Part shown: in pieces, positions 3,189-40,906 of the stretch
Position numbering within the stretch: the first letter of the stretch is position 1
How the letters are laid out: every line of letters starts with the position of its first letter
IMG/VR virus record: IMGVR_UViG_3300000117_007448
Coordinates: 39,199-103,198 of that record
DNA length: 64,000 nt
Direction: 5' to 3' (one strand)
Source of the DNA: a virus
Notes under the pieces: model-generated
Databases searched by the model: none
Told to the model about the DNA's origin: nothing
Seen by the model: only the letters and a program-made list of their open reading frames with translations
Translations under genes and position numbers: made by a program

Positions 3189-4057
3189 GTAGAATACTTC
3201 ATTTGTATGATGTGTCGCCAAGCAGGAACTCTATCGTATTGGTGTACAATACAAAAGTCTTTACTACCATCAGATGTTTTAACAGATCCACTTTCCATAA
3301 TAGGGCTTGATTCTAACAAGTGTGACTTAAATTCTTGTATCTTAGCTGGATCTGCCGTTGTACCTAATTGACAAGCCCAGCCATCTTCTGACTTAAAATA
3401 TTTTGATTTTTGTTTGTAGGGGGATTGTGAAACCATAAAGTTAAATGTAGATTGGTCACATATTGGTATAGGTTTACCCATGCAAGATGAAAATATATTA
3501 ATCATTAGAGATTTCATAGCATAACCTGTGCCAGCTAAAACACCTACATTATAGATTTCATTTTCTTTGAAAATTTCATGTACATATGGTCCATAAGTTT
3601 CAAGAAGATTTTGATTACCCCATGGTTCATTTTTATATAAAATACTTTCAGAGGAGAAAAAATAGTCATAATGATCATTATTATTAAAGTAAAAACAATG
3701 TTTCTCTTTATACTCTTCTATCCATTTAACTGGATCTTTTTGGAATATAACGTCTTTAACATCTGTTGTAATAACCCAATCATACTCTGGTGATTTTTTT
3801 AAATAATCATATATGTGTATAAATCTTTCAACATGAGGTGGCATTTTTGAATCATGAACTAAATTACCCTCATCATCTTTATTGAAACCTATGATTTTAA
3901 AACCAGCTTGTTCAACTTTGATAACTGTTTCTTTATCACAATTTAATAATATTAAAACTTTATCACCTTCAAATCCACTTTGATTAATTGAATTACACCA
4001 ATATTGTAGTGTATTCCAATCATAATTACTAGCACATCCTATAATCAAGTTACGCAT
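3185..4057 (-). CDS. Glycosyltransferase-like protein
   Basis: A protein of 290 aa. It begins MRNLIIGCASNYDWNTLQYW, and an acidic TTDVKDVIF motif (about 98) resembles the DxD metal/sugar-nucleotide site of GT-A-fold transferases, with a preceding DYLKKSPEYDWVI strand. Later GVLAGTGYAMKSLM and CDQSTFNFMV resemble the acceptor-side segments of GT8-like phage proteins. A GGAG ribosome-binding site lies 7 nt upstream of its ATG. It is followed directly by the alternative oxidase gene. Family assignment is by motif only. Confidence 0.6.
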   Translation of the reverse strand: MRNLIIGCASNYDWNTLQYWCNSINQSGFEGDKVLILLNCDKETVIKVEQAGFKIIGFNKDDEGNLVHDSKMPPHVERFIHIYDYLKKSPEYDWVITTDVKDVIFQKDPVKWIEEYKEKHCFYFNNNDHYDYFFSSESILYKNEPWGNQNLLETYGPYVHEIFKENEIYNVGVLAGTGYAMKSLMINIFSSCMGKPIPICDQSTFNFMVSQSPYKQKSKYFKSEDGWACQLGTTADPAKIQEFKSHLLESSPIMESGSVKTSDGSKDFCIVHQYDRVPAWRHIIQMKYST

Positions 4058-7785: not shown

Positions 7786-7814
7786 ATGATAACACGATTA
7801 TCGAATTATGTCAA
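7786..7814 (-). promoter_or_regulatory. Putative sigma70 promoter, possibly leaderless start
   Basis: On the minus strand TTGACA (7814-7809), a 17-bp spacer and TATCAT (7791-7786) give a good host-type promoter overlapping the stop of the DUF4338-like gene. The expected transcription start coincides with the ATG at 7779. A CATAAATA late-type motif overlaps the -10 element, so the site may serve more than one phase. Confidence 0.45.
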
Positions 7815-8916
7815 TCTCTTTATCACCTGTCCATACTTCTAAGTCTTTTCTGAGTCTTTTGTCGTTTTTAAGAGACATATATCTGCTTGAGGCCTTCTTG
7901 ACCCACCATTTAAATATATTCTCCAGATAGTGTTTATCGTGGTTATCCTTGTCTGGAATCAACTTATCTGTCTTACCAGTCACTACATCAACAAAGTTTG
8001 AGAAACCATAATTACAAGCGTAATATCGTTTCTTTTCAGTTAAATTAAGAGCTTTATTGATTGTTTTATTATATCTTTCCAAATCCTCACCATCTAAATT
8101 AGCCTTGATAAGAGCCTGTATTTTTGTAGATATTTTAAGTTTTCTTGATGAGGCATCTTCTGGTACTATCGGTTCACCAACAGCTTTTTCCATATAATCT
8201 CTTAAATCTTCATATGGTTTGCCGTGCATCAACGGTAAAAAATTAGAATCTGTAAGACCTTTAAATCGTAAAAATGGCTTCATGCCATCATACTGTGAAC
8301 TAGACTTTGATGAACCATACAAACTGGTCGTTTCAAATAAACAAGTATTCATACCTGGATATTTTGTATTCATTCTTTCACGAACAAAGTGTGAACAACA
8401 AATACCAGCCAATAATTTACCACCAAGGTAATTAAAACCAAATGGTTGTGATGGCACAATTGCAAAACCCATAATTGATGTTTTATTAAATGATACTGCT
8501 GTTTTAGCATCTTGTGTAAAAACACAATCTAATAGTTGATTTCTTGGTTTCATATTAATTACAGGAGAACCAATACGAATAAAACCAAGCCACTTTTTAC
8601 TATTCGTTTCTAATACACCTAATCGTAATGATTTTCCTGGAATACTTGTCATATTGGAATGAGATGAAATAATTTTAACATAAATGTCCCACATATTTTG
8701 GTTCATTTCATGTATTTCTATATTCATATCTTCTGGGTGCATATCAAAGTTATCAAATAAATCTATTTCAGGTCCCATTCCTGGTAATCCAAAGGACATT
8801 TTTTCAACTGTACTTACTTTTTGATCACGAATATAATCTGCAATACCATCAAATTTATCAAAGTAATCTGAGAATACTTTGGCACCGTGTATAGCTTGTT
8901 CTTTAGTTATTTTCAT
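7798..8916 (-). CDS. DUF4338/DruA-like protein, paralogue 1
   Basis: A protein of 372 aa related to the gene at 27295-28578. The shared core runs WLGFIRIGSP, a few tens of residues, then MGFAIVPSQPFGFNYLGGKL with LLAGICCS, later TTSLYG, SQYDGMKPF and GLT. The order of these blocks resembles DUF4338 (Druantia DruA) and, more loosely, the GNAT-like Mom family. This copy lacks the RDKFIGW block seen in its paralogue. It overlaps the gp41 helicase gene by 4 bp, so it is expressed with replication genes. No catalytic role is established; nucleic-acid or base modification is possible by analogy with Mom. The family call is from pattern memory only. Confidence 0.45.
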   Translation of the reverse strand: MKITKEQAIHGAKVFSDYFDKFDGIADYIRDQKVSTVEKMSFGLPGMGPEIDLFDNFDMHPEDMNIEIHEMNQNMWDIYVKIISSHSNMTSIPGKSLRLGVLETNSKKWLGFIRIGSPVINMKPRNQLLDCVFTQDAKTAVSFNKTSIMGFAIVPSQPFGFNYLGGKLLAGICCSHFVRERMNTKYPGMNTCLFETTSLYGSSKSSSQYDGMKPFLRFKGLTDSNFLPLMHGKPYEDLRDYMEKAVGEPIVPEDASSRKLKISTKIQALIKANLDGEDLERYNKTINKALNLTEKKRYYACNYGFSNFVDVVTGKTDKLIPDKDNHDKHYLENIFKWWVKKASSRYMSLKNDKRLRKDLEVWTGDKEIDIIR

Positions 8917-11343: not shown

Positions 11344-12162
11344 TTAACTATCCTTCATTTTTGTGATTTGATTTCTTGGCACTAGCATTTTATCCTTGTC
11401 TATAAAGAAGGAGTCTAAACTAGGACTAGGTGGTAAGTCAAGCTTTTTTTTCTTGTTTACCTTTTTTATTATAGTTTTAGGTTTTTCATTTTTATATTTT
11501 CTGTAAGATTGATTTGCGGCTATGAGTAATAATACCGCAAGAGGATCAAAAACAAATATGATTATAAAAATTACAGTTCTTACAGCTTTATCTATAAATT
11601 GAGGGTCACCTTCACCATATAAAAACTCGGCGATAAACATAATTGGTCCAACTTCTGCTTTTAATATATTCTCTTGCCTCAGCAGAGGTAATTTTTCTTT
11701 TGTAAGTTCTACCAATTGTGCTTGTGCATTTCGTATTTGTCTATCTGTTGTTCTTGCAACTTTCTCAGGATCATCACCTGCCTGTTTATACAGATATGTT
11801 AATCTTTCTCTAATTAAGTTTTCTCTTAATTCTATTTGTTTAATTTGCACAGAATTTGCACCAACTACTATGTTGGATTCAATATGAGCTCTTGAGAGAA
11901 AGCCAAATATACCCATAGAAGTAATTAACATCACAAGTATGATAGCTGTAATGAAATATACTTTCATGACTAAAATAGTTTCTTTCCAGTTATTATATAA
12001 CCAAGATACTGTTACAAGTTTTGCCACTTCTAAAACAGCACCCATTACAATGATTGGCCAAAATGATCCTGGAAAAATCTGTGCTAAACCTATTACAGAA
12101 TAATAAGCTGCAATTACTGATAATCCTATTGCTGTAATAAAAGGTAAAATTGCTTGTATCAT
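11344..12162 (-). CDS. Membrane protein with coiled-coil loop
   Basis: A protein of 272 aa with about four hydrophobic helices: residues 3-28, 33-56, 66-90 and about 185-215. A long charged helical segment (about 100-170, RENLIRERLTYLYKQAGDDP) lies between the third and fourth helices. The lysine-rich tail (KTIIKKVNKKKKLDLPP) would face the cytoplasm. It lies between uvsX and a 2OG oxygenase gene inside the replication operon. Similar proteins occur at this position in marine T4-like phages, but I know of no function. It could anchor replication or lysis-control components at the inner membrane (inference). Confidence 0.7.
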   Translation of the reverse strand: MIQAILPFITAIGLSVIAAYYSVIGLAQIFPGSFWPIIVMGAVLEVAKLVTVSWLYNNWKETILVMKVYFITAIILVMLITSMGIFGFLSRAHIESNIVVGANSVQIKQIELRENLIRERLTYLYKQAGDDPEKVARTTDRQIRNAQAQLVELTKEKLPLLRQENILKAEVGPIMFIAEFLYGEGDPQFIDKAVRTVIFIIIFVFDPLAVLLLIAANQSYRKYKNEKPKTIIKKVNKKKKLDLPPSPSLDSFFIDKDKMLVPRNQITKMKDS

Positions 12163-12797
12163 TTTATATCTAATTCAAATTCTTTTGTGCCAAGTCTACC
12201 TTTAATATGAACATTAAAAGCAAGTGAGTGTCTATCATTGTCTGTTTCATTTTTACCTACACTATGAATTGTTGATGATGGAAACATATACACATCTCCG
12301 TTTTTTGGAATCATACTCCAAATTTTTGAGTTAAATAAATTATAATCTATGACATCTACATCACATGAATGTGGAAAAATACCAGACACACTCAAATCTC
12401 TTAGAAGTGTAAATTCACCACAATCTTTCTCGCCAGTTACATCAAAATAATAAACACCAGAAAGAATACAATTTGTATGAATATGTTGTTGAGCCCAATC
12501 TCCAGATTTATGCCTAACTACCCATGAATTAGTAATATAAAATTCTATACTATCATGAGCTCTAAGTTCTCTATAAGCATATTTTATTATTTCATCATTT
12601 ATTTTATCTTTTAATGATGCACATTCTGGGTTGTTAAGTATGTATTTATCTACACCATAATCACCATTGTCTGATACCATTCTTTCAAATTTTTGATTTT
12701 TAAAAAAATCTTTAGTTGTTTCATCAATTAACAAACCCTGTTTTACATAGAGTGGTGTGCTAAACAGAGGTACTATTTTATAATCTATTTCATCCAA
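12159..12797 (-). CDS. 2OG-Fe(II) oxygenase (2OG-FeII_Oxy_5 type)
   Basis: A protein of 212 aa with the signature of the 2OG-FeII_Oxy_5 family common in marine phages: WAQQHIHTNCILSGVYYF (about 98-115) supplies the proximal metal ligands, and SSTIHSVGKNETDNDRHSLA (about 174-193) supplies the distal His and the Arg that binds 2-oxoglutarate. It would hydroxylate an unknown substrate using O2 and 2-oxoglutarate. It overlaps the membrane protein gene by 4 bp and the polymerase gene by 8 bp, so it is co-expressed with gp43 and uvsX. The substrate cannot be inferred from the sequence. Confidence 0.8.
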   Translation of the reverse strand: MDEIDYKIVPLFSTPLYVKQGLLIDETTKDFFKNQKFERMVSDNGDYGVDKYILNNPECASLKDKINDEIIKYAYRELRAHDSIEFYITNSWVVRHKSGDWAQQHIHTNCILSGVYYFDVTGEKDCGEFTLLRDLSVSGIFPHSCDVDVIDYNLFNSKIWSMIPKNGDVYMFPSSTIHSVGKNETDNDRHSLAFNVHIKGRLGTKEFELDIK

Positions 12798-19045: not shown

Positions 19046-19441
19046 TTATTTCTTTCTACCACCTATATCGGTAATCTCTTGCAGTTTTTGAATTTGATCT
19101 TTGGAAAGTATTCGAGAGGCTTCTAAAGCTTTTGTGTCTGAGAAGTTATAATATCTCTTTATACATTCTAAATTTTCACTCTTTGATCCAGGTTTTAACC
19201 ATTTTGAAAAAGGTCTCCTCATGGATCTAACTGTATTTAGTAAAAAGTCATTCTGCATTTTATTGTCTAAAAAATGTCTTTGGTTCATTTCATTTGCGAA
19301 AATAATACAATCTTTGTGATAACTTAGAGAACGATTGGTTAAAAATGGCTTATATTCTTTCTCTGTTATATCATCAACAATCAATTGCTTTTTACCTTGC
19401 AATATTTGTTTTACAAATTCAAATGGGCTTGTTTTAATCAT
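19046..19441 (-). CDS. gp62: Clamp-loader small subunit gp62
   Basis: A protein of 131 aa, shorter than T4 gp62 (187 aa). The opening SPFEFVKQILQGKKQLIVDD and the middle RSMRRPFSKWLKPG segment match gp62 of T4-like phages, including the conserved FSKW. With gp44 it loads the gp45 clamp. It overlaps the 2OG oxygenase gene by 8 bp and is followed by regA. In T4, 44 and 62 are adjacent; here they are separated by one gene. Confidence 0.85.
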   Translation of the reverse strand: MIKTSPFEFVKQILQGKKQLIVDDITEKEYKPFLTNRSLSYHKDCIIFANEMNQRHFLDNKMQNDFLLNTVRSMRRPFSKWLKPGSKSENLECIKRYYNFSDTKALEASRILSKDQIQKLQEITDIGGRKK

Positions 19442-20036
19442 GTGTCGTATACCAACCTGTTATTATATATTTTTCATGTTCTTTTGTTATTTGACCTGAG
19501 TGTACATGAGTAAAATAAGCAGGCCATATTACAGTCAAACCTTTAATGGCAGGTGTTGTAAATTTTTGATACTTGAAATTTGTACCACCATCAGGAACAT
19601 CATTTAAGTATGTCATAAAGACCAATACTCTATTTCCATCTGGCTTCCTATGGTCATTCTCAAAATGATCTAAGAAATATCCTTCACCAGGTTTATAATA
19701 TTGTAATACATAATCACAAAATATATTAAACTCTTTTACATTATTTACCATTGGATATTTTTTAATATATTCCATCAAACATTTTTGTAACCATATTCTA
19801 TAATCACTTATACATGAATCAATGTTTTTAGGGTGTATTACAATATCTGTTCTTTTTGTTCTTAATGCTTTTTTGGTTAAAGGAGTAAAACCATCTGAAT
19901 CATATTCATTGTACCTTAAAGTAGATTCATGTTTTTGTGAATTATTTTTAAAATACTGTACAAGATTATCACAAATATTTTCTGGTATATAACAGCCGCC
20001 AATCAAAGATTCTAATGGAAAGTAATGTTTCTTCAT
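19434..20036 (-). CDS. 2OG-Fe(II) oxygenase, prolyl-4-hydroxylase-like
   Basis: A protein of 200 aa. VLQYYKPGEGYFLDHFEND (about 102-120) is the P4H-type metal-binding strand, here with H-x-E rather than the usual H-x-D. LVFMTYLNDVPDGGTNF (about 130) is the characteristic family segment. HVHSGQITKEHEKYIITGWY (about 177) carries the distal His and the 2-oxoglutarate-binding Lys. It lies between the two clamp-loader genes gp44 and gp62 with overlaps on both sides, so it must be co-expressed with them. The substrate is unknown. Confidence 0.82.
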   Translation of the reverse strand: MKKHYFPLESLIGGCYIPENICDNLVQYFKNNSQKHESTLRYNEYDSDGFTPLTKKALRTKRTDIVIHPKNIDSCISDYRIWLQKCLMEYIKKYPMVNNVKEFNIFCDYVLQYYKPGEGYFLDHFENDHRKPDGNRVLVFMTYLNDVPDGGTNFKYQKFTTPAIKGLTVIWPAYFTHVHSGQITKEHEKYIITGWYTTHD

Positions 20037-27275: not shown

Positions 27276-27305
27276 TGTATATACTATAACATAACTATCT
27301 GCCAA
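27276..27305 (-). promoter_or_regulatory. Possible promoter for the tRNA-like element
   Basis: TTGGCA (27305-27300), an 18-bp spacer and TATACA (27281-27276) on the minus strand. The start expected 7 nt downstream is the first base of the tRNA-like element. It overlaps the stop codon of the DUF4338-like gene and an inverted repeat TTATGT/ACATAA (27273-27294). Confidence 0.35.
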
Positions 27306-28578
27306 TTTGGGGCAAATATGAATCTTTTGTTTCATTCCATGATTTATATATTAAATCGTCATAAAATAAACTTTCTTTCGATTCTCTACCTTTTTTGACC
27401 AATTGTTTAATTCTAGGTTTTGCATACTTGTATTTCCAAAGCTCTGATAGTGACTCTGTGGAATTATCAAATGCCTTTGTCAAATCATTTATTTCAGCTT
27501 CACCTCTCAAGTATGCACAGCTTTTATCATATAAGGGGCAAAAGTAAACACCTCTTGCGTGATCAGATTTCATTATTTCTTTTGGTATATTACCTAATTT
27601 ACTATATGTGAAAGCATACGATCTATGCCTATGATCTCTTTTTAATTGTTGACCATTTGGTCTTTTGGCAACATACCATTCAAAATATTTTCGTGGGTGG
27701 TTTTTCATCAACCAATGTCTAATTTGATATATTGTTTTCTTTGTTGGTTCATATGAAACAGAACCACTTGTAAAGCCCATTGGCTTCCAATATTTTAAAT
27801 TATCATATTGTGATAGACCACCTTTTTTTGTTTTACCATAAAGTGATGTTGTTGTTACACTTACTAAATCATCACCATAATTTTTCTTCCATTGTGATTG
27901 TACCTGTTCTGATAAACAAAGTAAAGCTAATAGTTTACCACCAACATAATTAAAACCAAGAGGTTGTAATGGTACAATCGTAGAACCTATTGCTGTATGA
28001 TTTAACATACCACTTTCTGTTTTGTAATTACGATCCCAACCAATAAATTTATCTCTTGGTGTTAAGTCAATAAAATCACCTGTAATGCAAATAACACCAA
28101 GATATTTTTTAGTTTTTTTATCACGAATAATATAAGCTAAATTACGGCCTATATTGGAGTTGTTTCTCATTGTAGATGTAAAAGTTCTAATAGCATTCCA
28201 TATTTCTGGCATACCATCTTTACCACCTGTATAAATCATTTCAGGTTCTAACTCTAGGTAATCTTCATTTGTTTTTGGTTGCCAAATATTATTTTTAACC
28301 TCTGCTAAAGCTTTTCTTTGTTTCTCATCTTTTAATACTTGTCGTTCACCCTCCCACAAATCGTTTACTGTGATTGTTGGGTATCTTTGTTTTACTTCAC
28401 AAAACTTTTGATATAGTGTATATTCTCTTACGTCCATTTGAGAAACATAAGATAAATCTGTTACAATGTTTTCTTTCAAATCTGAATCTGATATATCATC
28501 AAATACTATTTCAGACTCACTCCACTTTTTCCATTGTGTTTCTACATCATCTTTTACATCATATTTGTATGTACTCAT
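27295..28578 (-). CDS. DUF4338/DruA-like protein, paralogue 2
   Basis: A protein of 427 aa. KYLGVICITGDFIDLTPRDK leads into FIGWDRNYK (about 165-180), then STIVPLQPLGFNYVGGKLLA (about 195-214), a YGDDLVSVTTTSLYG block (about 235) and a YDNLKYWKPMGFTSG block (about 257). The order RD-x-x-IGW, small/aromatic strand, KLLA helix, T-rich strand, Y-x-x-x-x-W-x-x-x-G-x-T is that of DUF4338 (DruA of Druantia), with a looser likeness to Mom. It is a longer relative of the gene at 7798-8916. It overlaps the upstream gene by 4 bp and precedes the tRNA-like element. Function unproven. Confidence 0.5.
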   Translation of the reverse strand: MSTYKYDVKDDVETQWKKWSESEIVFDDISDSDLKENIVTDLSYVSQMDVREYTLYQKFCEVKQRYPTITVNDLWEGERQVLKDEKQRKALAEVKNNIWQPKTNEDYLELEPEMIYTGGKDGMPEIWNAIRTFTSTMRNNSNIGRNLAYIIRDKKTKKYLGVICITGDFIDLTPRDKFIGWDRNYKTESGMLNHTAIGSTIVPLQPLGFNYVGGKLLALLCLSEQVQSQWKKNYGDDLVSVTTTSLYGKTKKGGLSQYDNLKYWKPMGFTSGSVSYEPTKKTIYQIRHWLMKNHPRKYFEWYVAKRPNGQQLKRDHRHRSYAFTYSKLGNIPKEIMKSDHARGVYFCPLYDKSCAYLRGEAEINDLTKAFDNSTESLSELWKYKYAKPRIKQLVKKGRESKESLFYDDLIYKSWNETKDSYLPQIGR

Positions 28579-29664: not shown

Positions 29665-31376
29665 TAATTAATTATCCTTGAAAAATTACGATCTTTTTTA
29701 AATTTAATCACATTCATAAATTTGTCTTGTAATACATCTCCTTTATGACTAATTACGAATAAATTAACATCTTCTAGTAATTGTAAAATTTTCATCAAAT
29801 CTTCAGTACCATTTGCATCTAATGAAGAATCAAAAGTTTCATCAAGAATAAGCAAGTTTGTATTCGCTGAATTTTTTATCTTAGCTACAGCACGCCAAGT
29901 TAAAAGTAAAGCCATATCAATTCTTTGTTTCTCACCTTCACTAAATGAAGCATATGAAAAATCATCTCTATGTCTTGACTTAATCGTTTCTTTAAAACCT
30001 TCATCTAAATTAAAATTAACAAAAAAATCTAAACTCGACAAATACTTATTAGTAAGTTGATTAATAATAGGCAAGTATTGTTTAATTATTTTTGTTTTAA
30101 TGCCTGTATCTTTCAATAGTATTGAAGCCACCTCATAATAAATTTTGTCATCTAAAAGCTCTTTTAATTCACTTTTTGTATCAACTAATTTTTTTTCTAA
30201 TACTTTTAATTCTTCTTCTTCTTTTTGTGAAGTTGATTTTGAAGTTTTTAAACCATCTATTTCTTGTTCTATCTCAACTATCTTTTCTCTTTTTACAGTA
30301 ATTACGTTATTATTTGTGGCAATATTTACTTGTAATTCATGTATGTCCTCTTGAGCCTCTTGTATTCTATTTAATTTTTTCTGTTCTTCAAAAAACTTAG
30401 TTTCTAATTCTTTTAGTCCATCTTCATATTTTACTAGGTTATCTGACAAATTGTCAAGCTTATTTGTTTTAAATGCCTCATTAATTGCCTGTTTACAGGT
30501 GGGGCAATCATCATGATTTTTAAAGAACGTAATATCTTCATTATGATTCTTTATGTTTGATTCTATTTGAGATTCTAATTTTGTAATCTTTTTAATTCTT
30601 GATTCTGACTGTGTTTTTAATTTAACTTCTTCTTGTAATATACCTACAGCTATAGTATTTGCCTCGTTATATTGAGTGTAATTTATTACATCAGTTTCAC
30701 AATTTTGTTTTTCGTTTTTATATTTTTCAATTTTTAAACGATTATCTTCTTTTAGTGTGTTTATATACGCAAGCTTCATTTCATGTTTTTGATCATTCAA
30801 TTCGATTGAATGTTTTTTTTCTGTAACATTTTCCTTATTCTCTTGCATTTTACTTTTTAATAATCCATTCATTACAGAAAATACTCTAATGTCTAACAAA
30901 TCTTCTATGATTGATCTTCTATCATTTGGTGATAATTGCATGAATGGTGTAAAAGAAGCTGAACCTAACATGACAATTTGTGTAAAAGATTTAAAGTTTA
31001 ATTTAAGTATGAATTTTTCTAAAAAATCTTGGTAATCTCTAGCAGAGGCATCTTGATTAAGTAATTCATTATTTTCATATATTTCAAAAACATTTGGCTT
31101 GGCACCACGAATAACTCTATACGATTTATTGTTTGTGTCGAATTGAATCTCAACAACACAATCTCTAGTGTTAATTGAATTTACAATTTGTGTTTTTGAG
31201 ATTTTACGAAAAGGTTTATTGAATAGGCCAAAGCACAGAGCATCAAGTAAAGTTGATTTACCAGAACCATTTTCACCTACAATTAAAGAACTATCTTTAT
31301 TGTCAAGCTTAACTTCTGTAAAATAGTTACCTGTTGATAATAAATTTTTCCATTTTATTCTGCGAAATATGATCAT
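29664..31376 (-). CDS. gp46: Recombination nuclease subunit gp46 (Rad50/SbcC-like)
   Basis: A protein of 570 aa (T4 gp46 is 560 aa). Walker A is GENGSGKSTLLDAL (about 35), a zinc-hook CPTCKQAI sits near residue 295, flanked by coiled coils (about 170-290 and 310-410). The ABC signature is FSEGEKQRIDMALLL (about 470) and Walker B is LLILDETFDSSLD (about 500). With gp47 it resects DNA ends for phage recombination. Its ATG overlaps the stop of the 2OG oxygenase gene that separates it from gp47. Confidence 0.95.
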   Translation of the reverse strand: MIIFRRIKWKNLLSTGNYFTEVKLDNKDSSLIVGENGSGKSTLLDALCFGLFNKPFRKISKTQIVNSINTRDCVVEIQFDTNNKSYRVIRGAKPNVFEIYENNELLNQDASARDYQDFLEKFILKLNFKSFTQIVMLGSASFTPFMQLSPNDRRSIIEDLLDIRVFSVMNGLLKSKMQENKENVTEKKHSIELNDQKHEMKLAYINTLKEDNRLKIEKYKNEKQNCETDVINYTQYNEANTIAVGILQEEVKLKTQSESRIKKITKLESQIESNIKNHNEDITFFKNHDDCPTCKQAINEAFKTNKLDNLSDNLVKYEDGLKELETKFFEEQKKLNRIQEAQEDIHELQVNIATNNNVITVKREKIVEIEQEIDGLKTSKSTSQKEEEELKVLEKKLVDTKSELKELLDDKIYYEVASILLKDTGIKTKIIKQYLPIINQLTNKYLSSLDFFVNFNLDEGFKETIKSRHRDDFSYASFSEGEKQRIDMALLLTWRAVAKIKNSANTNLLILDETFDSSLDANGTEDLMKILQLLEDVNLFVISHKGDVLQDKFMNVIKFKKDRNFSRIIN

Positions 31377-32053
31377 CTAAATTTTGGCCCCAGAACCCAA
31401 ATTACAATTGATTTTCTTGTGCCTTTTGTAACAGGTTTTACTCTATGCACCATGAATGATGGAAACACAATTATGTCACCTTTTTTCATTTGTATTGACT
31501 CAGCATTTTTTTCTTCACCTGAATTAATTTGAAATTCACCGCCTTCAAAATCTACACCAGGTTCATTTAATAAAAATGTAACTGACAACTTTCTAGTTTC
31601 ATACATATCATCAGGTAATGAGTTACCCATAATTGTATCTTGATGAAAATCATATTTACCTTTTTCGTAATCATGATAAACAGTATATTGAAAAGTATCA
31701 TAACCATTCAAGTCAAAATTATAAAATTGCACATTTAAACAATCTATTACATAATTTAATCTATCATAAATCCAAGCCGTTTTCTCATCTCTGTTAATAA
31801 ATGCAACATCAGATTTTCTCACAGCTTCATTCGGTTTTTGAGTGCTTATTATATTTGCTTTTGTATTTGAATTTGATTTTCCTTCAAGTTTTGTCTGAAT
31901 TGTACTGCCCCTATCAAGTTCATATTCATCCATTTGTTTATGAAGTTGATCCATTTCTTTTTCATCAAAAGCCTTAGACCAATAACAATATGTAAAAAAT
32001 TTTCTTTGTCTTTCCTGTGGGTTATTGTATATGCCTCTATAGCTGTGACTCAT
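31373..32053 (-). CDS. 2OG-Fe(II) oxygenase, PKHD type
   Basis: A protein of 226 aa. YDFHQDTIMG (about 133) carries the H-x-D metal pair, LSVTFLLNEPGVDFEGGEF (about 153) is the family core strand with the GGEF turn, and the distal IIVFPSFMVHRVKPV (about 194) with GTRKSIVIWV supplies the last His and the 2OG Arg. This is the PKHD/PiuC-like group. It is wedged between gp47 and gp46, which are adjacent in T4, with ATGA-type overlaps on both sides. The substrate is unknown. Confidence 0.85.
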   Translation of the reverse strand: MSHSYRGIYNNPQERQRKFFTYCYWSKAFDEKEMDQLHKQMDEYELDRGSTIQTKLEGKSNSNTKANIISTQKPNEAVRKSDVAFINRDEKTAWIYDRLNYVIDCLNVQFYNFDLNGYDTFQYTVYHDYEKGKYDFHQDTIMGNSLPDDMYETRKLSVTFLLNEPGVDFEGGEFQINSGEEKNAESIQMKKGDIIVFPSFMVHRVKPVTKGTRKSIVIWVLGPKFR

Positions 32054-33144: not shown

Positions 33145-33666
33145 TCACAGAAATTTCTCAAGACCTTTTATTTTAGCCTCTTTCTTTTTCTTCTTACTTT
33201 CTTCAAAGTTTTGAATGAACTCTGCTATGTTATCATAAAGTTCAAAAGGTTTCAAGCTTCCATCAGGCAATTGTTCTTGATCTTCCATTATACCCATCTG
33301 TTCTGTGGCCTTATATTTTACATATAGCTGTTTTTTTTCTTTGGTAATTCTTCGTAAAAAGGCATAGTAAATTATTTGTGTAAAATAGGCAAAAGGATTT
33401 TTACTTTTTTCTGGATTGAAATTACGAAAATACATTAGGCAATTTTCTATACCATCTGAAATCATTTCATCTCGAAAAGAATATGATATGAAGTTAGGTT
33501 TTCTTGATAGGTGCTCAGCTATTTTGAAAAAACATTCACCAATGTAATTTGGTATTTGTGGTTCTGTTGTTTCATATTCTCTTGCTTTTGTACAAGCGTC
33601 TTTATATTCTATTAATGCTTTTAAAAAGTCTGCATTGTTTACATAATGATTCGATTTTTTAGTCAT
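33145..33666 (-). CDS. gp55: Late sigma factor gp55
   Basis: A protein of 173 aa (T4 gp55 is 185 aa). The middle FSYSFRDEMISDGIENCLMY-type helix (here YSFRDEMISDGIENC, about 61-75) and the FAYFTQIIYYAFLRRI segment (about 93) are the region-2-like helices typical of gp55 in T4-like phages. It directs host RNA polymerase to the late promoter motif, which is found repeatedly in this window. A lysine-rich helix follows near the C-terminus. Confidence 0.9.
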   Translation of the reverse strand: MTKKSNHYVNNADFLKALIEYKDACTKAREYETTEPQIPNYIGECFFKIAEHLSRKPNFISYSFRDEMISDGIENCLMYFRNFNPEKSKNPFAYFTQIIYYAFLRRITKEKKQLYVKYKATEQMGIMEDQEQLPDGSLKPFELYDNIAEFIQNFEESKKKKKEAKIKGLEKFL

Positions 33667-34352
33667 AATTCACTTTCAAATAATTTAGCATATGGTTGTT
33701 TATCATAAGCATACTCAGGGTAATGAGGACCGTTTTTATCTATGTAATGTAAAAAAGCTTGGCCAAGACGATATTTTTTACCACCTTTACATACTTCACG
33801 CCAATGTTCATAATCACAACCTCGATATATTACTGCATCACCATCTTTTAAAATACATTCGGTACCTTCCATAAAAATAGGCCAATTATATCCATCTCTA
33901 CTTGTATCAGATAATTTTACTGTTACTGATATTTCGCAAGAAGGCCTATCTGTATGTTTTTTTAATTCATTACCTTCACGGTATAGTCTAACATAAGTGT
34001 AAGTAGAACACAAGTCTAGGCCGGTAATAATTTCCATTGTAGGTCGCATTTGTTTCATTAATGCCTGAAAAGCTAAATCACCGTGTCTAGGTGCAAAAGA
34101 ACCTGGCACTTGTTCATCACCCAAATAACTATTATCTCTAGATAGTACACGAGCATGACTTGAAAACTTTAGATATTCAAATAAATATTTAGCTACTTCC
34201 CGAGGTATAAATTCTTTTACATGAACGTAACCTTTTTCTTCAAAAGTTTCTTGGTAATTGTGCATTATTTTGCTTGACAAAGGGGTTGACAAAATGTTAC
34301 TCTGGCTGTGTTCCGTTTGATGATTAATATTAAGGTCCTTTTTAAGACTCAT
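33663..34352 (-). CDS. 2OG-Fe(II) oxygenase-like protein
   Basis: A protein of 229 aa. LKKHTDRPSCEISVTVKLS (about 132) holds an H-x-D pair on the double-stranded beta-helix, and YRGCDYEHWREV (about 175) with YRLGQAFLHY gives the distal His and the trailing Arg strand. The first 29 residues are poorly structured. The start at 34352 overlaps the TGA of the GHMP kinase gene as ATGA. An ATG at 34265 (MHNYQET) would give a more typical domain start but lacks a ribosome-binding site. It closes the island that begins with the radical SAM gene and leads into gp55. Confidence 0.7.
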   Translation of the reverse strand: MSLKKDLNINHQTEHSQSNILSTPLSSKIMHNYQETFEEKGYVHVKEFIPREVAKYLFEYLKFSSHARVLSRDNSYLGDEQVPGSFAPRHGDLAFQALMKQMRPTMEIITGLDLCSTYTYVRLYREGNELKKHTDRPSCEISVTVKLSDTSRDGYNWPIFMEGTECILKDGDAVIYRGCDYEHWREVCKGGKKYRLGQAFLHYIDKNGPHYPEYAYDKQPYAKLFESEL

Positions 34353-35323
34353 ATGATTTGACTACCCTCTCTACTTAGTTTGAAAGGTACCCAAACTTTA
34401 ATACAATTGAGAGCTTGTTTAAATTTTTCTTGTTTTTCTGGTGGTACAACAAACATAAAGAAACCACCACCCCCAGCACCCATTAATTTTCCACCTAATG
34501 AGCCATTTTTATCTGATAACTCAAATATATCATCTAGCTTTTTATTTGTCAAATCACTTGTCAAATGTTTTTTAAATTTCCAAATAGCTTTTAACATACT
34601 AGATACTTTTTCTATATCACTTTCTTCTTCTATATAACGAATGCCCATATTTGCAACATCCATTATTTCATTTAAATAATTTTTATTTTTACCAATTTGT
34701 TCTACTTGTTTTCTTGATTGTACTTCAGCAATTCTATTTTTACCTGAAAAACCTAAAAGTATATGGTCTTCCATTTCTTTAATATATTCTTCAGATATAT
34801 TTACAGGTTCTACTTCCCATTCAGGCCCAAGACCAGCAGTAATTTTATTTATACCACCATATGCAGCTGTAATTTGATCTTGTATGCCAACACTTTCTTT
34901 ATTCAAGTGTTGTTCTACATGAATAGCTTGTAAGGCTAAATCTTTAGAACTAAGTTTTATACCTTTTTTATGATATAAAGCATTTAAAAGGCCAACTGTA
35001 AAAGATGAACTAGAACCAACACCAGACATTGCTGGCATTTCACCATCATGTGTTATAGTTAAACTATCATCTACTTCTAAAAGCTTTAAACAGTTTCTTA
35101 CAGATGGATGATCAATATCATCAATCTCACTTATCATTTCTATTCTTGAATATGATACCCTATACTTGTAACCAAAATATGGTGGTAAATCTTTAACACT
35201 TAGATAACAATGGTGATCTATTGCAGCTGAGATAATTCTCGACTTATTGAAAGTGTACCAATCTGGGTAATCAGTACCGCCGCCAAAAAGTGAAAGACGA
35301 TATGGTGTTTTTGATATAATCAT
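34349..35323 (-). CDS. GHMP kinase, HddA-like sugar kinase
   Basis: A protein of 324 aa. The opening ISKTPYRLSLFGGGTDYPDW is the family-specific start of D-glycero-D-manno-heptose-7-phosphate kinase-like enzymes. The GHMP ATP loop is PAMSGVGSSSSFTVGLLNA (about 93), and KLMGAGGGGFFMFVVPP (about 278) is the conserved C-terminal glycine motif. It would phosphorylate a sugar or sugar phosphate at the anomeric position (family knowledge). It sits directly beside the two transketolase subunits, so a phage-borne sugar pathway is implied. Confidence 0.85.
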   Translation of the reverse strand: MIISKTPYRLSLFGGGTDYPDWYTFNKSRIISAAIDHHCYLSVKDLPPYFGYKYRVSYSRIEMISEIDDIDHPSVRNCLKLLEVDDSLTITHDGEMPAMSGVGSSSSFTVGLLNALYHKKGIKLSSKDLALQAIHVEQHLNKESVGIQDQITAAYGGINKITAGLGPEWEVEPVNISEEYIKEMEDHILLGFSGKNRIAEVQSRKQVEQIGKNKNYLNEIMDVANMGIRYIEEESDIEKVSSMLKAIWKFKKHLTSDLTNKKLDDIFELSDKNGSLGGKLMGAGGGGFFMFVVPPEKQEKFKQALNCIKVWVPFKLSREGSQII

Positions 35324-35324
35324 A

Positions 35325-36245
35325 TTAAAAACTTTCAGATGTTTGTATTATATTTTCTTTTGAAAGGTTGTTTTTATTCAATAAATATTCTCTACCACCA
35401 TTTTCAAAAAAGTATTCTTCAGGTAAAGTAACAGCTTTTATTTTAGGAAAGAGACCATTTTTACTTACCCATTCCCATACTGCTGATGATAATGAGCCTG
35501 ATGGTGTTTGTTCATCAACAACAATAATACCATCACTTTTGTTTATCTGTTCTGTAAGCTCTATATCATAAGGAAAAGGCTTAGACTTTAAAATATCAGC
35601 AAAGGCAAAACGATCATCTGAATCCGATATTTCTTTACAAACGTGTGACATTTTACCATGAGATATTAAAAGTTTAAAATCTTTTTCTTTAGGATTATGT
35701 ACATAAACATCTCTGACTTGGCCAGTATGTGTATCACGTTTATCATACATATCAGGTAAGTCATCTCTATCTAATCTAACATATGCAAATTCAGGACGAT
35801 CTAATATTCTTTTTGCAATATTAGATGCAACGATTGGATCAGAGGCCGTGTAAATGTTAGAGTTCACTATTGACCTAAGACAAGCATACTCTTCCGTGAC
35901 GTAGTGTGTTGGTCCTGAGTCGCAATATCCTATACCAACACCAACTGAAATTAAAGTGATAGGTAAGTTCATAATTCCTGGCCCACACTTAATTTGTTCT
36001 AAAGCTCTCATTGAGAGAAAAGGTGCCATAGCATAACAAAACACTTTCTTTCCTTCAAGTGCAAGTCCTACAGCTACATCTATCATAGCTTGTTCTGATA
36101 TGCCACAATGTATAAAATTATCTGGGTAATCTTTTCTTAGATCATCAAGAGCCGGTGCTCCGAAGTCTGCACTAAGAAAAAAAATATCTTTATCAAACTT
36201 TAAGTTTTCTTTAATTCTTTCTATAAAGGCGTCACGCTGATACAT
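35325..36245 (-). CDS. Transketolase C-terminal subunit
   Basis: A protein of 306 aa from the ATG at 36245, which has AAGGAG 6 nt upstream; a longer frame reaches 36284 inside the previous gene. FIHCGISEQAMIDVAVGLAL (about 45-64) includes the catalytic Glu of the pyrimidine domain. PFLSMRALEQIKCG (about 75) and the SHGKMSHVC start of the C-terminal domain (about 198) match split transketolase subunit B. It needs the N-terminal subunit encoded just upstream, with a 14-bp overlap. Confidence 0.9.
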   Translation of the reverse strand: MYQRDAFIERIKENLKFDKDIFFLSADFGAPALDDLRKDYPDNFIHCGISEQAMIDVAVGLALEGKKVFCYAMAPFLSMRALEQIKCGPGIMNLPITLISVGVGIGYCDSGPTHYVTEEYACLRSIVNSNIYTASDPIVASNIAKRILDRPEFAYVRLDRDDLPDMYDKRDTHTGQVRDVYVHNPKEKDFKLLISHGKMSHVCKEISDSDDRFAFADILKSKPFPYDIELTEQINKSDGIIVVDEQTPSGSLSSAVWEWVSKNGLFPKIKAVTLPEEYFFENGGREYLLNKNNLSKENIIQTSESF

Positions 36246-37026
36246 TATTAATCTCCTTACGACATTGTTCAATTTCTGCTTCACTCATTTTATTCATATA
36301 ATGCCAATTAGGTTTGTTTTCCATTAATGAAAAACCTTTACCTTTTACAGTTCTTGATAAGATTATTTTTGGCACATCCACTTTAACATCTAAAGCTGAT
36401 TTTATTTCCGAAGTTGAATGTCCATCAACATCAAATATTTCAAAACCAAAACCTTCTAATTTTTCTTTAATAGGTTCTAAACTAACACAATCTTTAGTTT
36501 CACCTAAAATAATTAAATTATTGATGTCTATAAAAATTGTTAAGTTTTTTGGTTTGTAATGAGCTGCAAATATTAAAGCTTCCCATGTTGAGCCTTCATA
36601 CAGCTCACCTTCGCTTATGACAACATAAACATTTTTTGTATAATACTCTTTGTTAGATTCTGCCATACACATACCTAAACCAACTCCAACGCCATGACCT
36701 AAAGAACCTGATGTTACGTCAATACCTGGAATTGATATATTACCAAAAACTCTTAAACAAGAATCTTTTGATCCCCAATTATCCCACTCTTTTTGTGGTA
36801 TGATACCTAATTTAGTAAGTATAGGATATAGTGTAACAGTAGCATGACCTTTACTAATTAAGACTTTATCAAAATTAGGCCGGACAAATCCACCGTGATA
36901 TAAGGTAGTTGCTATTTCAACCATAGAAAAAGTCGAACCTGGATGACCTTGGCCAACTTCTACAAACTTTTCAAATAGTTCTGATCTGTATTCTTGAGCT
37001 TGTATTTGTAATTCATTATCATTCAT
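36232..37026 (-). CDS. Transketolase N-terminal subunit
   Basis: A protein of 264 aa from the ATG at 37026, with GGAGAT 4 nt upstream (37038 is an in-frame ATG whose second codon overlaps that site). GHPGSTFSMVEIATTLYHGG (about 24) and SLGHGVGVGLGMCMA (about 104) are typical of the thiamine diphosphate-binding half. The GDG metal motif reads SEG (ISEGELYEGSTWEA, about 127) and is followed by FIDINN. The Asp-to-Glu change at the Mg ligand is unusual. With the next gene it forms a two-subunit transketolase as found in bacterial sugar clusters. Confidence 0.88.
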   Translation of the reverse strand: MNDNELQIQAQEYRSELFEKFVEVGQGHPGSTFSMVEIATTLYHGGFVRPNFDKVLISKGHATVTLYPILTKLGIIPQKEWDNWGSKDSCLRVFGNISIPGIDVTSGSLGHGVGVGLGMCMAESNKEYYTKNVYVVISEGELYEGSTWEALIFAAHYKPKNLTIFIDINNLIILGETKDCVSLEPIKEKLEGFGFEIFDVDGHSTSEIKSALDVKVDVPKIILSRTVKGKGFSLMENKPNWHYMNKMSEAEIEQCRKEINNVSA

Positions 37027-37054
37027 ATCAATCTCCATTCACTTTTAATTATAT

Positions 37055-38563
37055 TTAATCTCCAAGTATTTTTCTTTTCAACCTTATTTTTTCCATTTCA
37101 ATTACATTATTTCTTGATTCAACACCAAACTTCTTTTCAACTAAATCAATAAAAGGTTTATGAGTAAAATATTTGTGCCACGCATCATCTCTAAATTTTA
37201 AAACTTCTGCACCTGTAAGGTATTTAGTTCGTAGTGGCCGACACTCATAGGATAAAAAAGCATACTCTTCAAATCTATCTGGTATATCCCAACCTTGTTT
37301 TCTTGCATACAAGTGTAATGGACTTCCTGGAAGAGCCATAGCTGCATAGAAGTTTGCGTGTTCAGTATTTAACTCAAGTGCTAGGTCTAATGTTTCTTGC
37401 ATATTACCATAATCTTCTTCAGGAAAACCAAACATATAATTACCGAGAATGTTTATATCAGCAGCTTTTATATTCTTCACAACTTCACGAATATTTACCT
37501 GTTTAAATCTACCCTTATCAATTTCTAATCTTACTTGTTGATTACCAGCTTCTATACCTAAACACAGCCAATTAACACCAGCCTTTTTGAAAAGTTCAAG
37601 TTGATCTTTTCTTACAGAATCAACTCTAGCATAAGCCCAAAAATTAAACTTCAATCCTCTTTGTATAAGTCCTTCAAGAATAGGTACATAATACTTTCTG
37701 TTTAAGAAAAACATTTCATCAGTTAATCTTACAGTCCTAACACCTTGTTCATAAAGATATTCAAATTCTTTTAATATTAATTGAGGATCCCAGAATCTCA
37801 TACCTTTTGAATCAGCTGAAGTTACATCATTACCATGTGATGTTCTATTTACAATATTAATCATACAAAAGTTACAAGCAAAAGAACAACCTAATGAAGT
37901 GTATATAGCTGCAAATGGTGTTCTGTTTTCATGTGAAAAATTAGAGTGCCAAAAATGGGCTCTATATTTTTTCAAGTCTATTAAATCCCAAGCATAACCT
38001 GGCATCATTGTATTCATGTCTTTTGTTTGAACAATTTTTCCTGGAGTAGATGGTCTCGGTAAACCTTTTTCTTTATACCATATACCAGGAACTTTATCTA
38101 ACTCATCTTCAAAATTAGTTTCAAGTAAAGCTAAAAGACCATATATTCCTTCATTAATAAAAGCAAAGTCGCAATAATCTTTTTGTACAACTTCATTAGG
38201 TAAAGCTGAAGCATGAGAACCTATGAAAGCCGTTTTTAAATTTGAATGACTTTTTTTAAGTTGACTTGCAAGAGATGAAGCACCAATCATCATAGTGGTG
38301 CCTGAATTTGGATTTTGTCCATATAAAACAAACACAACTAATTTTGGTTTGTATGAGTTTATTTCATCAGCGGCTTCTTCATCAGATTTATAATCGGCTT
38401 CATAATCTAATAATATAGGTTCATAACCTTTTGCACGAACAGAATTAGCTAATAGTAATGCCCAAGTGGGAGTTTCTATTGCTGAATGAGTTTTCGCTAA
38501 ATCTTGATATGCTTTTTTACCAACTGATGGTATCACAAATACTACTGGCCATTGTTTATTCAT
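37055..38563 (-). CDS. B12-binding radical SAM enzyme
   Basis: A protein of 502 aa. Residues 5-170 are a Rossmann-type cobalamin-binding domain (VVFVIPSVGKKAYQDL start, then FVLYGQNPNSG). YTSLGCSFACNFCMINI (about 225) has the CxxxCxxC cluster motif of radical SAM enzymes, followed by RTVRLTDEMFFLN and LGIEAGNQQVR (about 335), typical of BchE/P-methylase-like proteins. It could methylate or rearrange a sugar, lipid or other small substrate. It is the first gene of the transketolase/GHMP island. The start at 38563 overlaps the thermonuclease gene stop. Confidence 0.88.
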   Translation of the reverse strand: MNKQWPVVFVIPSVGKKAYQDLAKTHSAIETPTWALLLANSVRAKGYEPILLDYEADYKSDEEAADEINSYKPKLVVFVLYGQNPNSGTTMMIGASSLASQLKKSHSNLKTAFIGSHASALPNEVVQKDYCDFAFINEGIYGLLALLETNFEDELDKVPGIWYKEKGLPRPSTPGKIVQTKDMNTMMPGYAWDLIDLKKYRAHFWHSNFSHENRTPFAAIYTSLGCSFACNFCMINIVNRTSHGNDVTSADSKGMRFWDPQLILKEFEYLYEQGVRTVRLTDEMFFLNRKYYVPILEGLIQRGLKFNFWAYARVDSVRKDQLELFKKAGVNWLCLGIEAGNQQVRLEIDKGRFKQVNIREVVKNIKAADINILGNYMFGFPEEDYGNMQETLDLALELNTEHANFYAAMALPGSPLHLYARKQGWDIPDRFEEYAFLSYECRPLRTKYLTGAEVLKFRDDAWHKYFTHKPFIDLVEKKFGVESRNNVIEMEKIRLKRKILGD

Positions 38564-39035
38564 TATTTTTTCCAAAACCTTTTTCAAAAGTATTTACTAA
38601 ATTTTCCACCAACTCTCTATTTTTGATATGTTCTTCTTCAACATCATCTTTTGATTGTCCATGATATTTAACAGCTACTTTATGATAAACCATCAATTCA
38701 TTAAGTGTTGTCATAGTATTAAGACCTATATCATCAGATAATTTAGAATTACCGGGTAAAAGAAACTCACCTAAAACACGACCAAATTTACCTGATCTAT
38801 CTTTTTGTGTTTTTAATGTTTGCATAGAACCTACCGGTAAATATGTTTCAACATATTTTTTTGCAAAAAGTCCATATTTTTTTTCTACTAAATCTCTGGT
38901 TCTAGATTCTGGTGTATCAATGCCATATAGACGTATTCTTTCTTTGTGTATCCAAAGACCAAAACCTAAGTCAATATCAACATCTATTGTGTCACCATCA
39001 ACTATTCTTACTATTTTACAATTATATTCAAACAT
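38556..39035 (-). CDS. Thermonuclease (SNase-like)
   Basis: A protein of 159 aa with the staphylococcal nuclease fold: IVRIVDGDTIDVDIDLGFG (about 8) holds the first catalytic Asp, ERIRLYGIDTPESRTRD (about 32) holds the Arg and Asp motif, and KDRSGKFGRVLGEFLL (about 78) holds the second Arg. Small thermonucleases are common in marine T4-like phages. It would cut DNA or RNA with Ca2+. No signal peptide is visible, so it acts inside the cell. Confidence 0.88.
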   Translation of the reverse strand: MFEYNCKIVRIVDGDTIDVDIDLGFGLWIHKERIRLYGIDTPESRTRDLVEKKYGLFAKKYVETYLPVGSMQTLKTQKDRSGKFGRVLGEFLLPGNSKLSDDIGLNTMTTLNELMVYHKVAVKYHGQSKDDVEEEHIKNRELVENLVNTFEKGFGKNNE

Positions 39036-39036
39036 A

Positions 39037-39450
39037 TTAGTGTACCCGTTTTAGTGTTCTTTTTTCTTTTAAAGCTTGTCTAATTTCACTTATTTCATCC
39101 TCATTTAAATCTGACTCATCTTCAAATATTTTATCTTCGCCGATTTCTTCCATTCTCTGTTTAGCATCAATTACTATATTTTCATAATATTCTTTCATTT
39201 CACCTTTAGGTTCAAATATAGTTAATACATTTATAGAATCTATAAGTGCTATGTCATCTTGCACCATTTCTACTGGCAGCCATGGTAACATATACATCAT
39301 TGGGCCTGCTTTTTGTGATGGTGTTCTTTTAAAAATTATGTGCATTGGATTTTCCAATGTAACTTTTTTTTCTTTTTTATCTTCTGTAAAAGAAGCTATC
39401 ACATCTTCTCCAGATTTTAATCTTACTATTTTTATCTCTTTATTTTCCAT
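39037..39450 (-). CDS. Sm/Lsm-like phage protein
   Basis: A protein of 137 aa. KIVRLKSGEDVIASFTED (about 7-24), VTLENPMHIIF (about 30) and a later WLPVEMVQDDIALIDSINV stretch resemble the Sm1-Sm2 strands of Lsm/Hfq proteins (L-x-x-G-x-x-V, then beta strands). The last 40 residues are acidic and helical. This family is found next to uvsW in cyanophage-like genomes and has no known role. An RNA-binding function is inference from fold resemblance. Confidence 0.5.
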   Translation of the reverse strand: MENKEIKIVRLKSGEDVIASFTEDKKEKKVTLENPMHIIFKRTPSQKAGPMMYMLPWLPVEMVQDDIALIDSINVLTIFEPKGEMKEYYENIVIDAKQRMEEIGEDKIFEDESDLNEDEISEIRQALKEKRTLKRVH

Positions 39451-40906
39451 TTTTTAACTCTATGTTATAAAATTTGTAAGGAAACTTTTCCTCATCATAA
39501 ATTTTACACCTCTCTATAAAATGTTTGATTGTATAATTAGCAAACTTACCTACACGAAAATCATCAACTATATCAAACAAGGTGGCTTTTTCTTTTTGTT
39601 CACTTTTACGGAGACCCCTCCCTATTGATTGTAGATTTCGTATTCTTGATTTAGATGGACTTGCAAAGATTATATTATGTAGATTACGAATGTTGATACC
39701 GGTACTAAAAGTACCATAACTGGCCACAACAATTGCATCTGTTTCAACTTCAAGAATTGATCTAACCGATTCTCTAATCTCTGTATCAGTACCACCAAAA
39801 ACAAAAAATGTTTTTCTTTTACCTGACTTTTCTTTAATAGTTTCATATAAATTTTTACCATGTTTTTCAACATATTGATATAAAATTAATGTATTACCAT
39901 CTAAAGATAAAGTTAAGTTGCGAATAAAGTTATTTCTAGCTTGACATTTGACTATGTAATCTATTTCTGTATTATAGTCCCACTTTCTAGCTTGTTGTTT
40001 TATTACTTCATCATATTTTAAAATTAAACACTTTATTCTAAAATCAGCAAGTTGTCCTCTCTCTATAAGTTCTGATGTTGTTGTAGCTTTATAAACAGGG
40101 CCAAAGAGTCCTTCTAAAACTAATCTATGTGTCTGAGTACCATCTAAGGTGCCTGTTGTTCCTATCCTGTATTTAGAGTTAATGCAATTTGATAGTATCG
40201 TAGTAAGTGATTTGGCTTTAAATTGATGTGCCTCATCACCAATTACAAAATCAAACTGTTCAAAATATCCTTTGTCATTTTTATATACTGATTGCCATGT
40301 AGATATTGTTAAAAAACTATTTGTGTGTTTTTCTTTACCTGAATATTGGCGATGACAATACTTGTCGGAATCAAAACCATAAGATTTGAAATCTGTAAAC
40401 ATTTGTTCAACAAGTGAGGTAGTTGGTACGATTAAAAGACCTTTGATATGATCTTTCATCAAATATCGTATAATTAAATAAAGTATGAGTGATTTACCAG
40501 ATGCTGTTGGTGATAGTATAAGCCTTCTTTTATTTCTTATACTTTGTACAAATGATTGTAATTGATAATCTCTAACTTTAAAAGGTAAATCTAATGTCTT
40601 GGTGAAGTCTACTGCCTCAACTAGAGATAGAGAATGTGTTATGTTAACATCTGGAGATAGTTCGAGCTTATAATCTCTTTCGGAACAAAATTTTTTTATA
40701 TGGGGAATTAGCCCATAATATATTGTTTTGTTTCGCCGGTCAAATAGACAAATTTTACCATCCCATGATCTGTTCCTGTAGGCCGGCATAAAACGATAAC
40801 CAGGAACGTGAAAAGTAAAATAACCAGATAATTCCATTTCATAGTGTGGCTCACATTCGACTTTTAAGAAAGCTTCATTTAATTTATGTAATACTATATC
40901 ACTCAA
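39440..40906 (-). CDS. uvsW: UvsW DNA/RNA helicase
   Basis: A protein of 488 aa (T4 UvsW is 503 aa). The N-terminal MPAYRNRSWDGKICLFDRRN segment is the typical UvsW start. Superfamily 2 motifs are SPTASGKSLI (I, about 130), DFVIGDEAHQFKA (II, about 218), GTTGTLDGTQ (III, about 247) and ASYGTFSTGINIRNL plus QSIGRGLRKSE (V-VI, about 398-430). It resolves R-loops and recombination intermediates. It overlaps the Sm-like gene by 11 bp. Confidence 0.93.
   Translation of the reverse strand: MSDIVLHKLNEAFLKVECEPHYEMELSGYFTFHVPGYRFMPAYRNRSWDGKICLFDRRNKTIYYGLIPHIKKFCSERDYKLELSPDVNITHSLSLVEAVDFTKTLDLPFKVRDYQLQSFVQSIRNKRRLILSPTASGKSLILYLIIRYLMKDHIKGLLIVPTTSLVEQMFTDFKSYGFDSDKYCHRQYSGKEKHTNSFLTISTWQSVYKNDKGYFEQFDFVIGDEAHQFKAKSLTTILSNCINSKYRIGTTGTLDGTQTHRLVLEGLFGPVYKATTTSELIERGQLADFRIKCLILKYDEVIKQQARKWDYNTEIDYIVKCQARNNFIRNLTLSLDGNTLILYQYVEKHGKNLYETIKEKSGKRKTFFVFGGTDTEIRESVRSILEVETDAIVVASYGTFSTGINIRNLHNIIFASPSKSRIRNLQSIGRGLRKSEQKEKATLFDIVDDFRVGKFANYTIKHFIERCKIYDEEKFPYKFYNIELKNGK

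Follow-up and report, generated by a model that had tools for sequence, protein, structure and literature searches.

The stretch of DNA analysed here (the window) comprises 64,000 nucleotides, bases 39199-103198 of the linear IMG/VR record IMGVR_UViG_3300000117_007448 (103,198 bases), and comes from a T4-like phage that shares 62% identity in the major capsid protein with pelagiphage HTVC008M. On its minus strand, upstream of the gene for the late sigma factor gp55, lie four genes that encode a B12-binding-type radical S-adenosylmethionine (SAM) enzyme, the two halves of a split transketolase, and an HddA-like GHMP kinase. On balance, we consider it slightly more probable than not that these genes are a truncated, host-derived sugar-nucleotide cassette for a GDP-linked 3-deoxy, C4-branched heptose of the host surface glycan. 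This reading draws on the complete cassette of related phages, on its thiamine diphosphate (ThDP)-dependent enzyme pair, and on homologous bacterial operons.

A six-gene cassette between UvsW and gp55

Using the transketolase N half and the radical SAM protein as queries, we collected ~100 viral loci. The complete ones hold six genes in a fixed order, namely those for the radical SAM enzyme, the ThDP pair, the GHMP kinase, a DegT-family (ColD-like) protein, and a short-chain dehydrogenase/reductase (SDR). The cassette sits between UvsW/orf39037 and gp55, and UvsW lies upstream of it in every locus that reaches that far. In the window, the upstream flank comprises the gene for a UvsW-type helicase (39440..40906, minus strand; named by position and sequence, not by family search) and, in the interval between UvsW and the slot, the small conserved orf39037 (39037..39450, minus strand; weakly DUF6561-like, Pfam 7e-5, below the cut-off). 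The downstream core flank is gp55 itself (33145..33666, minus strand; PHROG 234, 5e-63).

The window phage has four of the six cassette genes. The first, encoding the radical SAM enzyme (37055..38587, minus strand; Pfam B12-binding 1.7e-8, Radical_SAM 4e-17), could start at TTG 38587 or at the in-frame ATG 38563, which is the likely start. The transketolase N half, with the PP domain (36232..37038, minus strand; Transketolase_N 2e-26), is followed by the C half, with the Pyr and C domains (35325..36284, minus strand; Transket_pyr 7e-22); a GTG start was called for the latter, and alignment suggests that the true start is the ATG at 36245. The kinase gene (34349..35323, minus strand; Pfam GHMP_kinases_N/C) has HddA as its top NCBIfam model. 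The ColD-like dehydratase and the SDR are absent from the 103-kb record: when the dehydratase, SDR, DJ-1, and cupin sequences were compared with all of it by tblastn, a distant DJ-1 paralogue alone was matched. The record may itself be incomplete.

Cassette genes are under purifying selection, with ratios of nonsynonymous to synonymous substitution (dN/dS) of ~0.02-0.25, which indicates that they are in use. This bears on the idea that the four genes of the window phage have no joint function and are what is left of a decaying cassette. Two pathway genes are indeed missing, and others have been lost or replaced in L003, the closest relative by core genes, which has a different radical SAM enzyme (44%) and a DJ-1 gene instead of the transketolase. 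However, all four open reading frames (ORFs) are intact, their window-versus-relative dN/dS is ~0.08-0.24, and independently assembled contigs (L002, L004/L005, L121) show identical linkage at 97-100% protein identity, so we regard a functionless remnant as quite improbable. The kinase gene is split into two ORFs in one contig (L027:9662-10647), which is a frameshift or a sequencing error.

We also surveyed the slot itself in the 80 best gp55-bearing contigs. In ~50 of the 80, gp55 directly follows the upstream core genes; the remaining slots are filled by the cassette, by a small orf that was YunG-like in the cases tested, or by other genes for sugars. The last group, named by reading the sequences and not by family search, includes glycosyltransferase-like, HAD/nucleotidyltransferase-like, and methyltransferase-like genes (L204:400-3301), a DegT gene with an SDR gene (L247:3325-6915), and an RmlB-like SDR gene (L249:7052-8008). 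Given these varied contents, the slot upstream of gp55 looks like a general exchange site at which surface-sugar genes are inserted. The small orf (~130-150 amino acids; e.g., L146:13700-14152) precedes gp55, matches YunG (Pfam 1.6e-9), and stands alone in many slots that have no cassette.

Two types of ThDP enzyme in one position

The ThDP pair varies in type. Cassette genes were seen in 96 loci: the position is filled by transketolase halves in 37, by a mini E1-alpha/beta pair (199 and 176 amino acids; E1_dh 2e-15, Transket_pyr 9e-11) in 47, and by a DJ-1-associated set in four, and eight were not assigned to a type. Full-length E1-like subunits occur in three of the four DJ-1-associated sets (L194, L199, L223). 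Viral loci that have the radical SAM and GHMP kinase genes without a transketolase match carry an E1-type pair there instead. The enzyme family is transketolase or E1, and not the YerE-type ThDP decarboxylase.

Changes of type were counted for a common set of 51 loci on three trees. There are eight changes on the UvsW tree (at least seven forced by well-supported branches), nine on the kinase tree (at least eight forced), and five on the radical SAM tree (at least two forced). It follows from the trees of the flanking genes that the ThDP pair has been replaced repeatedly between conserved neighbors and is interchangeable, with at least 7-8 switches. Since fewer changes are seen on the radical SAM tree, that gene partly travels together with the ThDP pair, and this partial co-exchange suggests that the radical SAM enzyme acts on the branch or is matched to it.

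By its features, a CxxxCxxC cluster motif and a B12-binding-type domain, the protein would be a B12-dependent radical SAM enzyme; there is no DxHxxG motif. Its structural model, with a predicted local distance difference test score (pLDDT) of 70, is nearest to AprD4, followed by OxsB and TsrM. Bacterial homologues are up to 59% identical, and no phage record in INPHARED was matched, save for a 21%-identical protein of a Streptomyces phage. As a separate observation, L034:604-1005 and L035:3725-4132 read, by eye, like IscA-/IscU-type iron-sulphur assembly proteins, which might support the radical SAM enzyme.

The closest solved structures to the transketolase halves are the split transketolase 6yak (N half) and 6yaj (C half). 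When the viral proteins were numbered on E. coli TktA, the ThDP-binding and catalytic residues of classical transketolase were found to be present, with H26, H66, E160, N185, H261, E411, F434, and H473 retained in every viral copy. The TPP motif named in an original prediction, a reading of the window's letters that preceded this analysis, is noncanonical in form: the GDG motif reads SEG, and the Mg-binding D155 is replaced by E. In contrast, residues of the donor and phosphosugar-acceptor sites are replaced: H100 is F in 35/35 viral N halves, and in all viral C halves S385 is P or A, H461 is G, and D469 is S or A. Position 100 is consistently Phe in 1-deoxy-D-xylulose-5-phosphate synthase (DXPS), and the H100F change raised the use of pyruvate by a transketolase (PMC7661550). 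In work that evolved transketolase away from acceptors carrying phosphate, S385 and D469 were altered (PMC5073344). The replacements at H100, S385, and D469 favor a pyruvate-dependent transfer of a C2 unit to a keto sugar, rather than classical chemistry, as the probable activity of the phage transketolase.

Another way to link a transketolase with this kinase would be for the split enzyme to make sedoheptulose-7-phosphate, which would feed GmhA and the HddA-like kinase and so increase the supply of ordinary GDP-heptose; a diversion of pentose or heptose phosphates was also part of the original prediction. The presence of the kinase in the same cassette, of GmhA in many bacterial operons, and of the retained ThDP-chemistry residues together with R358 and R520 all fit such a route. 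Yet an E1-type pair, which is not expected to make that product, often replaces the transketolase in the slot, and no viral copy has kept H100, D469, S385, or H461 of the donor and phosphosugar-acceptor sites, whereas the split enzyme of C. hydrogenoformans, which is active, retains His100 (PMC7661550) and, by alignment, D469. We therefore disfavor phosphosugar diversion and judge it unlikely.

Bacterial operons and the proposed pathway

To find chromosomal operons, we scanned contigs with a radical SAM alignment that also contained plasmid homologues. SAR11, Pseudomonas, methanotrophs, Bradyrhizobium, and Vibrio are among the bacteria with homologous operons. The Pseudomonas/methanotroph/Bradyrhizobium/Vibrio-type order, seen in chromosomes and single-cell genomes, is radical SAM enzyme, kinase, GFS, transketolase N half, transketolase C half, ColD, nucleotidyltransferase, (GmhA), SDR; several operons continue with NUDIX genes or with genes for ABC-2 export. 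In many loci of SAR11 and Verrucomicrobia, the E1-type pair takes the place of the transketolase. Solidesulfovibrio plasmid pDMC1 carries genes for glycosyltransferases, the radical SAM enzyme, NUDIX, kinase, ThDP pair, SDR, DegT, a further SDR, nucleotidyltransferase, and an SIS protein, while Azospirillum plasmids hold parts of the operon. A SAR11 locus, L112, has the phage gene order apart from a single insert, and GmhA and a nucleotidyltransferase-HAD gene lie close by. Of the cell sequences, its transketolase N half lies closest to the viral group (60% identity).

The original prediction of an unusual-sugar module shared with bacterial surface-polysaccharide loci is borne out by these operons, and its proposed check on gene order and donors came out in its favor: dozens of viral contigs share the order, the viral transketolase N halves lie on one side of a branch with support 90, and the viral SDRs form one group with support 79. 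The phage cassette is host-derived. By homology with the bacterial surface-sugar operons, its genes would belong to surface-glycan synthesis.

The enzymes beside the ThDP pair point to a GDP-heptose. The closest solved structures to the kinase are the heptose kinases 3k85 and 4n3o, and its expected product is a sugar 1-phosphate. In relatives, the DegT-family protein finds its top solved matches (239 bits) in the ColD entries and shows His-His in place of the pyridoxal phosphate-binding lysine of aminotransferases, features that predict a ColD-type, pyridoxamine phosphate-dependent C3-dehydratase with His for Lys, the gene for which is lacking from the window copy. The best solved match of the relatives' SDR is 6vo6 (317 bits, the next being 67). 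A blastp search for GmhA and guanylyltransferase genes among the ORFs of the window genome found neither.

Substrates, the order of the steps, the branch, and the biological purpose are what we infer from this gene content. First, the HddA-like kinase would phosphorylate a heptose-7-phosphate at C1, and enzymes of the host GmhB/HddC type would dephosphorylate and guanylylate the product to give GDP-D-glycero-manno-heptose. The Cj1427-like phage SDR would then oxidize C4 to a ketone, and the ColD-like phage enzyme would take off the C3 hydroxyl. In a fourth step, the ThDP pair would add a two-carbon unit, probably acetyl from pyruvate, at the C4 ketone, yielding a nine-carbon branched sugar, in which the radical SAM enzyme would make one more branch-linked change (C-methylation or another radical step). 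The window phage would supply the first, fourth, and fifth steps; the second and third would need a host SDR and dehydratase, or genes beyond the record.

Precedents exist for parts of this scheme. In C. jejuni, the C4 of GDP-D-glycero-manno-heptose is oxidized by Cj1427 and its C3 hydroxyl is removed by a ColD-type enzyme (PMC10680097, PMC10440746), the two giving GDP-3-deoxy-4-keto-heptose in vitro (PMC10680097). The capsular GDP-heptose pathways of that organism (GmhA, HddA, HddC, Cj1427, ColD-type; PMC10680097, PMC10440746) appear to share with the cassette the combination of HddA-like kinase, 6vo6-like SDR, and ColD-like dehydratase, but the cassette adds the ThDP pair and the radical SAM enzyme, no C3/C5 epimerase was seen in the phage, and the C. 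jejuni papers mention no transketolase. The ThDP enzymes that branch keto sugars include YerE in O-antigens, pyruvate-using E1-type pairs in antibiotics, and split transketolases, for which the role is proposed but unproven (PMC12247030). The yersiniose-type pathway resembles ours in having C3 deoxygenation followed by a ThDP enzyme in a surface-sugar context; it uses YerE and a CDP-hexose (PMC12247030), whereas the cassette has a split transketolase or E1-type pair and its sugar appears to be a GDP-heptose. The same two ThDP types are found in the miharamycin/amipurimycin split transketolase and the aldgamycin-type alpha-KADH2 pairs, where a C2 branch on a keto sugar is proposed or shown (PMC12247030). 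Those are antibiotic clusters, whereas here the two types alternate in one slot of a phage/bacterial sugar operon.

Several observations weigh against the proposed pathway. Lacking the SDR and the dehydratase, the window phage would have an incomplete pathway of its own unless the host complements it. The kinase scores far under the HddA equivalog cut-off (110 versus 600 bits). R358 and R520, which also bind the acceptor phosphate, are retained in the phage transketolase. The PDB title of 6vo6 says only 'putative sugar-nucleotide epimerase/dehydratase'; its identity with Cj1427, the C. jejuni GDP-heptose C4-dehydrogenase, is presumed. Finally, L003 has the kinase and a radical SAM enzyme with no ThDP pair, and some Azospirillum clusters have these two genes without the transketolase, so the kinase and radical SAM enzyme may have a role apart from branching.

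As for the destination of the sugar, T4-like phages glucosylate their DNA, and the window phage has glycosyltransferase-like genes elsewhere in its genome, which would suit a cassette sugar that modifies phage DNA or virion proteins instead of the host surface. We find this very unlikely. The bacterial operons are of the surface-polysaccharide type, with GmhA and/or nucleotidyltransferase genes, glycosyltransferases, and ABC-2-type exporters, and no dCMP (deoxycytidine monophosphate) hydroxymethylase was seen in the ORF lists, although no search was aimed at it. Moreover, pelagimyophages carry lipopolysaccharide genes for which serotype conversion was proposed and modification of the O-chain favored (PMC7029224). 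They are likewise T4-like aquatic phages with surface-sugar genes in variable regions; the text of that study mentions no transketolase, gp55, or gp46, and does not name this operon or slot. Based on the operon context and that serotype-conversion proposal, the altered surface glycan would most likely change phage receptors (serotype conversion, superinfection exclusion).

Wider meaning and neighboring genes

Phage surface-sugar genes are an already known kind, and we found no description of this operon in the literature searched. The cassette offers a pathway concrete enough to test, and it shows in nature two types of ThDP enzyme trading places in a single slot, at least 7-8 times. Whether transketolases accept ketones is an open question in enzymology (PMC12247030), and the viral enzymes are candidates from nature whose donor and acceptor sites carry substitutions at positions that protein engineering has made use of. 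The pathway would also help to account for surface changes that SAR11-type phages may cause in the most abundant bacteria of the ocean. A broader proposal is more tentative, and we hold it to be somewhat doubtful: aquatic T4-like phages and their hosts would share a modular operon for undescribed GDP-linked, branched nine-carbon sugars, in which transketolase- and E1-derived pairs are interchangeable pyruvate-dependent C-branching enzymes, and phages would swap the module, in part along with the radical SAM gene, to change the surface type of the host.

Two neighbors of the cassette had been given a different place in the original prediction, which described a five-gene island that included a 2-oxoglutarate (2OG)-Fe(II)-type gene and was bordered by a thermonuclease of the phage core. 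The five adjacent ORFs are intact and touch or overlap on the minus strand, and the families to which they were assigned stand; however, the unit in relatives is the six-gene cassette without the 2OG gene, and the predicted set lacked the C3-dehydratase and GDP-heptose-type SDR that define the pathway, and with them the truncation in the window. We rejected the 2OG gene as a cassette member because none of the bacterial operons examined holds a homologue of it and most viral slots lack it. The thermonuclease was rejected as a core neighbor, since it lies beside the cassette only in the window phage and its closest kin. Both are local passengers. The 2OG-type protein (33663..34352, minus strand; weak Pfam, PHROG 2954), adjoining gp55, retains an HxD...H motif; no solved relative was found by sequence search, and its AlphaFold model (pLDDT 51) was too poor for use. 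The staphylococcal-nuclease-like gene occupies 38556..39035 (minus strand; SNase 4e-8).

Three more genes of the 2OG-Fe(II) oxygenase family lie near core genes (window 31373-32053, 12159-12797, and 19434-20036). Elsewhere in the window, an alternative oxidase (2613-3221; Pfam AOX 1.4e-63) is adjoined by a nucleotidyltransferase-HAD fusion (141-1196) and an APH-like kinase (1187-1933), the latter two of which resemble a further pathway for a sugar or metabolite. Two proteins (7798-8916 and 27295-28578) match DruA, a family of Druantia defence proteins, at 2e-6 and 9e-17. To the left of the window, an NAD-dependent formate dehydrogenase (L035:1494-2687; 655 bits versus an NCBIfam cut-off of 329) is an unusual phage cargo.

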